64,000 nucleotides of DNA from Halovivax cerinus (GTDB lineage Archaea > Halobacteriota > Halobacteria > Halobacteriales > Natrialbaceae): contig NZ_CP101824.1 of the NCBI RefSeq assembly GCF_024498195.1, positions 3,472,001 to 3,536,000 of the forward strand. The letters run 5' to 3'. Below the pieces are notes generated by a model. That model had not been told where the DNA came from. It did not search any database and saw only the letters and a list, made by a program, of their open reading frames with translations. This document shows, in pieces, positions 47,503-56,055 of this stretch (position 1 is the stretch's first letter; the number at the start of each line of letters is the position of its first letter). The position numbers were made by a program, and so were the translations under genes.

Positions 47503-48119
47503 TGTCTGAGGATAGGAACCACACTGACCGCGAAAGTCCGGCGACTGGCCGGGCGCACTTCCGCAATCTCGAGTCGCGCCGAGAGATCGGGTCCGAGGTG
47601 GACACCGTGACGCGACGGGTCAGATTTGCGGCCGTGCGATTCCCGCCGAATATCGGACGAGAACCGGTAAAAGCGTGTCGACTCGGGAAGACGGGATCGA
47701 CGCTGTCGCCCAGACGCGATTCCAGGTCCGTCGTCCCGACAGGTATCGATCGAGGGGTGGAGGGGCCGAGGGCGCACGGCCCGAGTGACAGCCGCTCCGG
47801 TGTACGAACCGAGTGGCGGACGGTCTGGGTGGCGGACGGACGCAAGCGGTGGCGGTTGCACACCGGAGCCGGTAGAAGGCACATCGGGAGGCGCACTCTG
47901 GGTGCATACGGATAGCCGGCACGAAGTCCTCGCGGCACCGATCACACCAGCGCTCGACCGGATCGCGGGACCGGACGCGCATTACCGTCTCCACTGCAGG
48001 CGGTTCGATTATTAGTCATCTTACGGTATTTGCGTTGGTCATATCTATATCTTTTACTTCATTGTGAATTGTATGTACAATCGAACAATTTATCATACAT
48101 CGATGGGCAGTCGTATATC
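47503..48119. other. Long divergent intergenic region, AT-rich at its right end
   Basis: 617 bp between divergent genes rps15 and the membrane protein. A minus-strand frame near 47979-47850 begins with a CDRC pair but soon becomes Arg/Pro-rich shadow sequence and is not supported. From ~48000 the DNA turns AT-rich (tatctatatcttttacttc, ~48040-48058), probably the promoter region of the membrane protein. Confidence 0.5.
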
Positions 48120-51823: not shown

Positions 51824-53446
51824 ATGTCGCAGGTCGCGGACGCCCCGCACGAGAGCCACGGCCGTTGGAAGTGGGACGAGTGGGGCCGCGGGCCATACAC
51901 GGCGCTGTCGAAGGTGATGCTCGGACCGCCGTTCGAGGGAGAGATGAATCTCGACGTCGAGGTCGACGGCGAGCCCTGGCACATCTACGTCAAGTATTCG
52001 AAATCCGGGTTTGCGCCGGCCGAGAGCGACCCGATCGAAGCGACGCGGTTATACGAGTGGGACATAATCGGCCGCGGTCCGGGTGAGTCGAAGTCGACGT
52101 ACAACATCTCACCCCGATTCCCGGATATGCGTCACTTCGAGACGGGTGAACCGGTCAATCTCCCGTGGGAGAACCAGTTTGGCGAGGTCGAGGGAGTCGA
52201 CGTCGAGTACAAACCCTCGAACGTGACGCCCGAGCGATCGCTCGAACTGTTACCCGAGTTCTTCCACGCGATCTTCGAGGAGGCCGGCGAACCGGTGTAT
52301 CGCGAGTACTTCCGAGAACCGCCGCACCCGGAGTACAGCCGCGAGTGGGCGCACGAGCGATACGTACGCGCTCGCCGAGAATGGGCCGAGCGGATGGCGC
52401 AGTCGGGTGTTCTGCAGAAGGTCACGCACCACCTGGCCGATACCGAGGGTGTGAAGATGACCCTCGATATCGACAACGAGGAGGTCGTGAACCACCAGAA
52501 CCGGCTTATTCTCCCGCCGTCGGCGGTGAGCGAACTGTTTCCCGGACACACCTACGGCCGAAAGTTCGAGATCTACCTGCTCGCCGATCCGAACGCGGTG
52601 AGTTCGGATCACCCGTCGTACCATCCGAAGGTGGAGGTCCTCGTAAACAAGTCGTTCAACGACGGCGAGTCGTGGGCGTGGGCCGAGCGCCAGGAAGTCG
52701 TCGAGGAGATCGAGGAGACGCTGATGAACTTCCTGGCGTGGGAGGACATTCCGTTGAACCCGGACGGGAGCGGCGTGTACGTCGAAGACGACCACTTCGC
52801 GGCCGAAACGCGCGAGGAACCGGTCGAGATCTACCAGGACCCGACGCCAGGTCTCGAAGCGAAAAGCGACCACCTGTTGGTGACGACGCTCCGCGAGATG
52901 GGCGACACGGCCGAGGAGGTCGCCGGCACGATCGCGACGGACGGCGGCCAGCGCGTCGACGACCTGGCCGACGACCTGGGGAAGCATCCGGCGACGATCT
53001 ACCGCGCGATCCAGGAACTCGGTGAGCTCGTGACGCTCGATCAGGGCCACGTCTCGTACCGAGCGCGGAAGTTCCAGGAGGAGATTCGTGCGCTCGTCGA
53101 GAGCGCCGAGTACGCCATCGAGAGTACGGCCGACCGACTCCAGCAGGTCATGCACCTGGCGGAGCACGTCGCCGACGTCTCGCCGTTCCAGAAGTGGGTG
53201 GCCGAGTACGGCGCCGAGATTCAGTTCGACGAAGACGGCGATCCGGAGCAGCTGCGAATCGACGGTATCCTATCGTGGCTGAAATCCAGCTCGTACGAGT
53301 CCGTCCAGGAGGCCGCGCGGAAGGCGATCGAGAAGTGGCGCCACTCGGGGAACGATCCAGCTGTTCTCCGTGGCGCTATTATGAAGTGGCAGACCCCTGA
53401 AGGCGGGACCGACACCGGCTACATTGGGGCCGTCGCCGACCGCTGA
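51824..53446 (+). CDS. Large HTH-containing element protein (DUF7845-type)
   Basis: 540 residues. I recall related proteins in haloarchaeal proviruses and integrated elements under DUF7845. The N-terminal ~330 residues are beta/alpha and not similar to a known fold I can name. Residues ~365-420 include a winged helix (RVDDLADDLGKHPATIYRAIQEL) and the C-terminal ~100 residues are helical. Candidate roles are replication initiation, partition or gene control. It ends the operon, followed by a non-coding region with strong hairpins. Confidence 0.72.
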   Translation: MSQVADAPHESHGRWKWDEWGRGPYTALSKVMLGPPFEGEMNLDVEVDGEPWHIYVKYSKSGFAPAESDPIEATRLYEWDIIGRGPGESKSTYNISPRFPDMRHFETGEPVNLPWENQFGEVEGVDVEYKPSNVTPERSLELLPEFFHAIFEEAGEPVYREYFREPPHPEYSREWAHERYVRARREWAERMAQSGVLQKVTHHLADTEGVKMTLDIDNEEVVNHQNRLILPPSAVSELFPGHTYGRKFEIYLLADPNAVSSDHPSYHPKVEVLVNKSFNDGESWAWAERQEVVEEIEETLMNFLAWEDIPLNPDGSGVYVEDDHFAAETREEPVEIYQDPTPGLEAKSDHLLVTTLREMGDTAEEVAGTIATDGGQRVDDLADDLGKHPATIYRAIQELGELVTLDQGHVSYRARKFQEEIRALVESAEYAIESTADRLQQVMHLAEHVADVSPFQKWVAEYGAEIQFDEDGDPEQLRIDGILSWLKSSSYESVQEAARKAIEKWRHSGNDPAVLRGAIMKWQTPEGGTDTGYIGAVADR

Positions 53447-55477: not shown

Positions 55478-55714
55478 CTAGCCCCGATCTAACTGCTGTG
55501 TCCACTGATGCGAGAAGTCGGAGAGATTCATCGCGGCGGCGCAGTGTTCACAGCAGTACCGGACGGAGTTCCCGTACTTCTTCGACAGGCCGGACGACGG
55601 CTCGACGGAGACCTTGAAGAGGAACGCCGGCGCCACGGCGCGATCACACCGGTAGCACTCTTCGTTCCGAGGCGTCTCGGGAGACCCGGCGCCCGAGCTT
55701 CCGATCGATTTCAC
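55478..55714 (-). CDS. DUF7576-like zinc-finger protein
   Basis: 78 residues from a GTG at 55714 (VKSIGSSGAGSPETPRNEEC). Two Cys pairs, EECYRCDRAV and RYCCEHCAAAMNL, with the intervening FLFKVSVEPSSGL, match the haloarchaeal DUF7576 zinc-finger family. The frame upstream of the GTG lacks similarity. Function unknown; single gene on the minus strand of the element. Confidence 0.7.
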   Translation of the reverse strand: MKSIGSSGAGSPETPRNEECYRCDRAVAPAFLFKVSVEPSSGLSKKYGNSVRYCCEHCAAAMNLSDFSHQWTQQLDRG

Positions 55715-55862
55715 GCGTGAACACCTCGATCGAGTCGCACGGGGAGGTCGATCATGTGCGCTCTCCAATCCCCGATTTCGAAAGTAAACGACGGAGAGCG
55801 ATTCGACTCTCGAAACCGAGAGCGGGCGAGACCTTTTTGTCGTAGTGGTGTGTTCCGTAACA

Positions 55863-55982
55863 TGGCAACCAAAACCCCGTTACAGGGTTTGGAAGCCAAG
55901 CGTCTCGGGTGTCCTTACCACCCGGGACTTTTGCTGCGAAGTCCCCTGCGACCGACGGAGACGCTGGCTTCCAGCGGGAGCT
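55863..55982 (-). ncRNA. Candidate structured RNA with three-way junction and own promoter
   Basis: Outer stem P1 pairs 55891-55906 with 55958-55972 (15 pairs, one bulged A). It encloses hairpin P2 (55907-55911 with 55919-55923, 5 bp) and hairpin P3 (55924-55930 with 55939-55945, 7 bp). On the minus strand a TATA-like ttataataa (55995-56003) would start transcription at about 55973, exactly at the 5' end of P1. A GC hairpin with a short U-run (minus strand ACCC-tgtaac-GGGGTTTT, ~55888-55873) could end it. TGGC (55863-55866) can also pair with GCCA (55895-55898), in competition with P1. A + strand transcript (T-tract at 55834) is the alternative. Confidence 0.5.
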
Positions 55983-56055
55983 ACGTGGTACTAGTTATTA
56001 TAATTATTGGACGTTCGAGGAATTAATTATCTGAAGCCACACGCCGCCGTTCCAA

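Follow-up and report, generated by a model that had tools for sequence, protein, structure and literature searches.

Related systems

Confirmed or predicted cis-regulatory RNAs of archaea amounted to only a handful in 2020 (PMC7247131), and in 2021 experimental proof of a natural archaeal riboswitch was limited to the fluoride one (PMC8241225), according to the accessible parts of these papers. In translational riboswitches with start-codon masking, both the natural bacterial classes and a synthetic theophylline switch described for Haloferax in the available text of PMC8241225, two exclusive folds leave the start codon exposed or bury it. Structured leaders of small haloarchaeal operons are found among the archaeal ribosomal-protein leaders, such as S15-Halobacteria (RF03143). 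As to gene organization, termination-reinitiation at ATGA overlaps, with a Shine-Dalgarno (SD) sequence before the downstream gene, has been shown experimentally in Haloferax volcanii (PMC6728339, accessible part), and small two-CxxC proteins with many paralogues are known as haloarchaeal zinc-finger micro-proteins (PMC11241148 and PMC6562870, as far as their available text goes).

The RNA described here is encoded in a 64,000-nucleotide stretch of the Halovivax cerinus genome, hereafter the window, and resembles in part each of these systems. A conserved structured RNA in the 5' leader of a gene, the feature expected of a riboswitch, is present, and two exclusive folds, with the start codon exposed or buried, are predicted. 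Unlike translational riboswitches, the leader has no known ligand and no sequence match in Rfam, the start that it would control lacks an SD sequence (SD-like motifs in 3/102 loci), and the putative switching strand lies at the very beginning of the RNA and recurs ahead of the AUG. Unlike S15-Halobacteria, the leader precedes non-ribosomal genes (two-CxxC, SWIM), is found in up to 32 copies per genome and does not match the RF03143 model. It differs from the H. volcanii pairs, as presented in the accessible part of PMC6728339, because here a short ORF under little protein-level constraint takes the upstream position, behind a conserved RNA. Compared with the micro-proteins, in the available text of PMC11241148 and PMC6562870, the gene families described here have a leader RNA in common and reach the cut-off of no Pfam or NCBIfam model.

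The leader family is probably a new class of cis-regulatory RNA leader with two exclusive predicted folds, and its platform is unusual in being SD-free and in repeating the 5' end. No Rfam family matches the leader at gathering cut-offs or with E up to 10 (best match elsewhere, E 4.9), and 12 loci searched gave only a tRNA. The leader is similarly not described in the accessible portions of the open literature on haloarchaeal riboswitches, RNA motifs, Natrialbaceae non-coding RNA, SWIM genes and leader-peptide attenuation (PMC2864571, PMC8241225, PMC7247131 and PMC6728339 included). Dozens of copies per genome would make the family conspicuous among archaeal cis-regulatory RNAs; it provides a concrete model for the structural regulation of SD-less start codons, and would place a group of uncharacterised zinc-protein families under a common control.

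A structured leader on the minus strand

A conserved structured RNA is encoded by the minus strand of the interval (Table 1). The minus-strand fold is better than 200/200 dinucleotide shuffles (z -3.49); the plus-strand fold is weaker (z -2.39), 4 of 200 shuffles being equally good. The stem P1, made of 15 pairs and one bulged base, encloses the hairpins P2 and P3 in a three-way junction, and the outer stem, junction and two hairpins proposed in the initial annotation are borne out. The 3' end of the leader is directly adjoined by an ATG. This is the start of a 50-codon ORF, which is followed by the gene for a 78-aa CxxC protein; both recur in the family, and both had been overlooked when it was stated that no protein gene in the region is convincing.

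Table 1. Leader, promoter-like box and downstream genes at the window locus
Feature	Position in window	Strand	Basis or remark
TATA-like box TATAATAACTAG	55991..56002	minus	first base at -30 from predicted start
Transcript start, predicted	55972 (first base of P1)	minus	TATA distance only
Structured 5' leader, 109 nt	55864..55972	minus	covariance-model match E 6.8e-19; fold z -3.49
P1 5' strand GGAAGCCAGCGTCTC, extreme 5' end of RNA	55958..55972	minus	fold and covariation
P2 hairpin GGGACTT...AAGTCCC	55924..55945	minus	fold
P3 hairpin GGGTG...CACCC	55907..55923	minus	fold and covariation
Middle strand GAGACGCTTGGCTTCC, P1 3' strand and predicted alternative-pairing partner	55891..55906	minus	fold and covariation
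P4 hairpin CCAAACCC...GGGGTTTTGG; CC common to P4 and P1	55869..55892	minus	fold
GCC and A of ATG; partner of TGGC (55898-55895) in predicted alternative state	55863..55866	minus	fold and class-level covariation
First ORF, 50 codons, MLRNTPLRQKGLARSRFRESNRSPSFTFEIGDWRAHMIDLPVRLDRGVHA, no SD-like sequence	55711..55863	minus	frame open to second gene in family
SD-like GAGGTG before second gene	55722..55727	minus	sequence; motif recurs in family
Second gene, 78 aa, two-CxxC (ECYRCDR...YCCEHCAAAMNLS)	55478..55714	minus	GTG start overlaps first-ORF TGA

Conservation and covariation

The window region matches 22 places of its own genome in a sequence search. Twenty stretches were taken, and 18 of these (all except L043 and L047; the prefix L denotes loci) form alignment A1, the basis of a covariance model. 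Models R1 and R2 encode P1, P3 and the letters preceding the ATG, and do not include the alternative pairing discussed below. After removal of repeats, 137 matches yielded 131 non-identical leaders. Eighty loci (L108-L187) were retrieved with a pattern in which P3 and GGCTTCC are fixed, letters that are consequently conserved in them by construction; 56 other matches, as well as the distant leaders, come from sequence and model searches alone. One hundred chosen loci, distant ones included, make up the 101 rows of alignment A5.

A TATA-like box is located at exactly -30 in 119/131 leaders, which supports, as a prediction, the minus-strand start that the initial annotation had set at the base of the stem. 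GCC-ATG closes the leader in 104 cases, AGC-ATG in 13, ACC-ATG in 10 and other sequences in 4, and all but 2 of the 131 end at a start codon. P1 forms 7/7 pairs in 127 leaders and 6/7 in the other 4. In A5, an alignment fitted to P1 and P3 in a way that favours both stems, 97.1% of the P1 and P3 cells are paired and 11/14 pairs have changed on both sides; none of 500 shuffles reaches any of five covariation measures, and a slid partner gives 25-51%. P3 alone has 99.0% of cells paired, with double changes in 4/6 pairs. Compensatory changes in homologues, which had been suggested as a check on the structure, are hence present. Apart from P1 and P3, little was recovered by RNAalifold from the whole alignments. 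The 3' part of the leader, which includes P4, is more stable than with a shuffled loop (mean z -2.3, 131 leaders). The hairpin outside the junction had also been read as a terminator, a role that is not confirmed, no conserved U tract being visible by eye after P4. Beyond the stems, GAAA before the 3' strand of P2, GUG..CAC in P3 and AGAC are conserved in different gene contexts.

Size and distribution of the family

The covariance-model search, likewise proposed at the outset, finds the leader 32 times in its own genome at E <= 2.0e-9, the next match having E 0.02. The copies are scattered over the chromosome at unrelated places. One of them, L034 (own genome 72038-72200), has about 50 nt of extra insertion in the P2 region, which brings the leader to 160 nt; the standard gene pair is still found downstream. 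Matches were found in 37 of 145 genomes sampled from the class and in 79 of 391 Halobacteria genomes, 66 of which belong to the family of the window and 13 do not. At most 26 candidates per genome were scored in the former run and at most 10 in the latter, so copy numbers there are lower bounds. Several genomes of the window's own family gave no match in these covariance-model runs. Genera such as Natrinema, Natrialba, Halovivax and Halopiger are among the named pattern-search matches listed, and the taxonomy lines of Natrinema, Haloterrigena, Natrarchaeobaculum and Halovivax place these in Natrialbaceae. The first-ORF and second-gene sequences of the window are most alike to Halovivax asiaticus loci.

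Outside Natrialbaceae, leaders are found on plasmids of Halorubrum, Haloarcula, Halalkalicoccus, Haladaptatus and strain DL31. Plasmid genes were also picked by protein similarity alone, and the DNA upstream of 18 records (6 of 8 plus 12 of 49) was tested. R2 matches with E <= 0.01 were obtained in three (L305, L306, L307), and matches with E 0.035 and 0.11 in L310 and L304, respectively; L311 and L312 are leader-like by eye only, and 11/18 of these protein-found relatives have no such leader upstream. At L304 (2510-2902 of NZ_CP027032.1) a hypothetical protein is annotated on the opposite strand over the ORF adjoining the leader-like RNA, and this annotation is probably wrong. A sequence-free descriptor scan of plasmid loci performed as on shuffled sequence (4 vs 4 matches), true leaders being missed at its threshold. 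In the viral_contigs set two strict patterns and the SWIM-type pattern gave 0 matches each. A loose pattern gave 26 stretches, one of which, L328 (1316-1394 of an IMG/VR contig classed as viral), is by eye a convincing short leader (E 0.11), with GGAACG..., CCGGTGCTAGAACACCGG, GGGTTCCC and GAACCC-ATG.

The initial annotation placed the RNA near the right end of an element and proposed that it controls this element (copy number, excision) or acts as a guide-like RNA. A promoter-like box of its own and an independent structure would suit an element-control RNA, or more generally a small RNA acting in trans, but the start codon of a conserved two-gene unit lies directly at the 3' end in nearly all copies, and the copies occupy many unrelated sites of the chromosome. 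In addition, the nearby tRNA-Ala gene has no exact att-like repeat of 13 nt elsewhere in the window. Neither an adjacent nuclease gene nor a variable guide segment was seen in the locus contexts inspected, and nothing there is guide-like. Such functions are highly improbable, and were rejected on gene context.

Pairing of the middle strand with the bases before the AUG

When the first 8 nt are held unpaired, folding pairs the pre-AUG bases with the 3' strand of P1 in 129/131 leaders, and the competing TGGC/GCCA pairing pointed out in the initial annotation is thus real. Since the strand closing P1 is the same that pairs with the pre-AUG bases, the two states are mutually exclusive. The mean predicted unpaired probabilities of A, U and G of the start codon are 0.77, 0.72 and 0.58 with P1, and 0.15, 0.24 and 0.24 without it. 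In many copies the letters preceding the ATG (GAAGCC or GGAAGC) reproduce the GGAAGCC with which the RNA begins. Among distant relatives the three strands change together, and the 5', middle and pre-ATG strands read GGAAGAC / GGTCTTCC / GAAGACC in L229, GGGAAC / GGGTTCCC / GAACCC in L253, GGAACCC / GGGTTCC / GAACCC in L305 and GAGACAGACC / GGTCTGTTTC / ACAGACC in L310. The same three-strand layout is featured by L305, L307 and L310, leaders found afterwards through protein similarity.

In fixed columns, the alternative helix is 75.9% paired in the first register, with a score reached by 17/500 shuffles (weak covariation), and no covariation is seen in the other register. Fixed-column covariation is unconvincing because registers shift and many copies use a P4-extended form, and support for the alternative pairing therefore rests on a register-free test, carried out on the 95 A5 rows ending in ATG. 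Taking one random leader from each of 15 middle-strand classes, the own partner forms 4.93 bp vs 3.03 for permuted partners, a difference attained in 0/3000 permutations. Five or more pairs ending at -1 are found in 58/95 leaders, and in 0 to 22 at eight other end positions.

A structure devoid of switching, which merely shields the 5' end or places the ribosome, the second strand copy being a by-product of start-codon context, would agree with the weak fixed-register covariation and with the predicted stability of P1, which on average exceeds that of the alternative by 5.4 kcal/mol (sd 3.8; 131 leaders). Such a fixed structure is nonetheless quite unlikely, as pre-AUG bases track the middle strand over the 15 classes, and pairing is specific to -1. 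Class-level covariation supports a predicted expression platform with two mutually exclusive states, and the switch-like layout noticed in the initial annotation gains support from both conservation and covariation.

Downstream genes and probable coupling

In the window, the stop of the first ORF and the start of the second gene overlap in GCGTGA, the TGA ending at 55711 and the GTG starting at 55714. Of 104 leaders followed by a two-pair cysteine ORF, 102 have one in a frame other than that of the first ORF. In 100/102 of these the first frame stays open as far as the second gene, against 19/102 for the third frame. Relative to the first stop, the second gene starts at -1 in 62 loci, at -5 in 22, at -8 in 7 and at +4 in 5. 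SD-like motifs precede the second gene in 71/102 loci and the first ORF in 3/102. Overlapping stop and start codons with an SD before the second gene, as expected of a termination-reinitiation pair, are found both in the window and in the family, and frame, overlap and SD data altogether fit the process described in the accessible part of PMC6728339.

A conserved small protein was considered as the cause of the conservation, and rejected. In the own-genome group, codons 1-14 of the first ORF have a pN/pS of 0.51 in frame, and of 1.04 and 1.50 out of frame, which is coding-like. In relatives pN/pS is 1.00 for codons 2-14 and 0.94 for codons 15-25, values that are not coding-like. Coupling is therefore the probable reason why the first ORF stays open, and its first codons are probably conserved for a role in the RNA. 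Codon 10 is Lys AAA in 127/130 leaders, and codons 10-14 read in relatives, for example in L105, AAA CGT CTC/CCC GCA CGA, with nucleotide-level conservation and atypical codon choice. The conserved stretch (AAACGTCYCGCACG; 55836-55822 in the window) is complementary to CGAGACGT of the leader, with no covariation. A longer alternative hairpin, formed by nt 30-37 of the first ORF (ACGUCUCG) and CGAGACGU of the leader, is among the best diagonals of leader-ORF complementarity and similarly shows no covariation. Third-position GC is 36% in codons 2-14 of the first ORF vs 78% in the second gene. The nucleotide conservation of codons 2-14 is outside what the switch model explains.

Some loci deviate from the standard organization. 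The first ORF has a stop at codon 9 in L073 (own genome 1015479-1015566), which offers a natural test of the need for coupling, and encodes 119-159 aa in L050, L054, L057 and L059. In L050 and L054 (the same places as L046 and L048) it includes a CPHC...CGC finger of its own before a similar second one, as after tandem duplication. In Haladaptatus the leader ends exactly where the first gene, annotated as 'SWIM zinc finger family protein', begins. SWIM genes are found in many copies and fragments per plasmid (L272, L273); NZ_CP085339.1 has 33 matches, several of them interrupted by stops, a picture that would suit a gene that spreads and decays on Haladaptatus plasmids.

A model for the leader and its signal

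From these data, the leader is probably a cis-acting translational switch of a two-gene unit, in which the start codon is free when P1 is closed and the zinc protein is made by coupling. Transcription is predicted to begin at the first base of P1. Closure of P1, a stem supported by covariation, would complete the three-way junction and sequester the middle strand (..GGCUUCC), leaving GCC-AUG mostly free for translation of the first ORF. When the 5' strand is unavailable the middle strand, as conservation and class-level covariation suggest, would take the pre-AUG bases, which are often nearly identical to the 5' strand; the start codon would then be buried at the foot of a hairpin, and the unit would be OFF. 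Judging from frame, overlap and SD, ribosomes that terminate on the first ORF may start again on the overlapping gene of the small zinc-binding protein, whose output the leader RNA would thereby set. In the SWIM part of the family the zinc protein is the first ORF itself. As P1 is favoured by 5.4 kcal/mol and presumably forms first in transcription, the default state should be ON, and an opener of P1 would be needed; given the predicted stability of P1, unaided switching to OFF is not expected at equilibrium. The opener is envisaged as a shared signal, which might act on the P1-P2-P3 junction.

Two-pair cysteine ORFs are found within 560 nt of 104/123 leaders, 8 further leaders being left out of this count as too near the end of the DNA fetched. 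In distant leaders a zinc-like pattern is seen in the first or next ORF of 21/34, vs 1/24 small annotated leaderless genes in a small control drawn from two plasmid stretches. The zinc-protein types behind the leader (two-CxxC, PCGC, SWIM) are mutually unrelated, and none of the small proteins tried corresponds to a Pfam or NCBIfam family above cut-off. An association of this kind might reflect autoregulation, in which the encoded zinc protein binds the three-way junction and opens P1, as in ribosomal-protein leaders. Autoregulation concerns the signal only and is compatible with the switch; it is conceivable, if rather doubtful, because unrelated protein types are carried by the same RNA, and 32 copies per genome would cross-talk. 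The presence of zinc proteins downstream would also suit a putative riboswitch for a ligand or ion (zinc, another metal, or ionic strength) with the junction as sensor, again an alternative on the signal only, and the compact junction, with non-stem stretches conserved across different gene contexts, agrees with it; a ligand or ion riboswitch is however unlikely, no biosynthesis or transport gene pointing to a metabolite.

As the opener of P1 in the translational switch, a host factor common to all copies, or a signal linked to metals, seems more likely than separate autoregulation, since unrelated zinc-protein types carry the same leader. In its broadest and rather improbable extension, the model would describe a natural archaeal RNA regulon, in which dozens of unrelated small zinc-protein genes per cell respond through one RNA device to a common zinc-linked or ionic signal, the transcript 5' end competing with its own pre-AUG repeat. 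The regulon so conceived would take in relatives on plasmids and on at least one viral contig.

Two other features of the window may be mentioned. An S15-Halobacteria leader (RF03143) is found on the minus strand at 47555-47646, with 66.7 bits vs a cut-off of 49, and a 540-aa protein with DUF7845 (E 4.1e-100) is encoded at 51824-53446, close to the tRNA-Ala gene.
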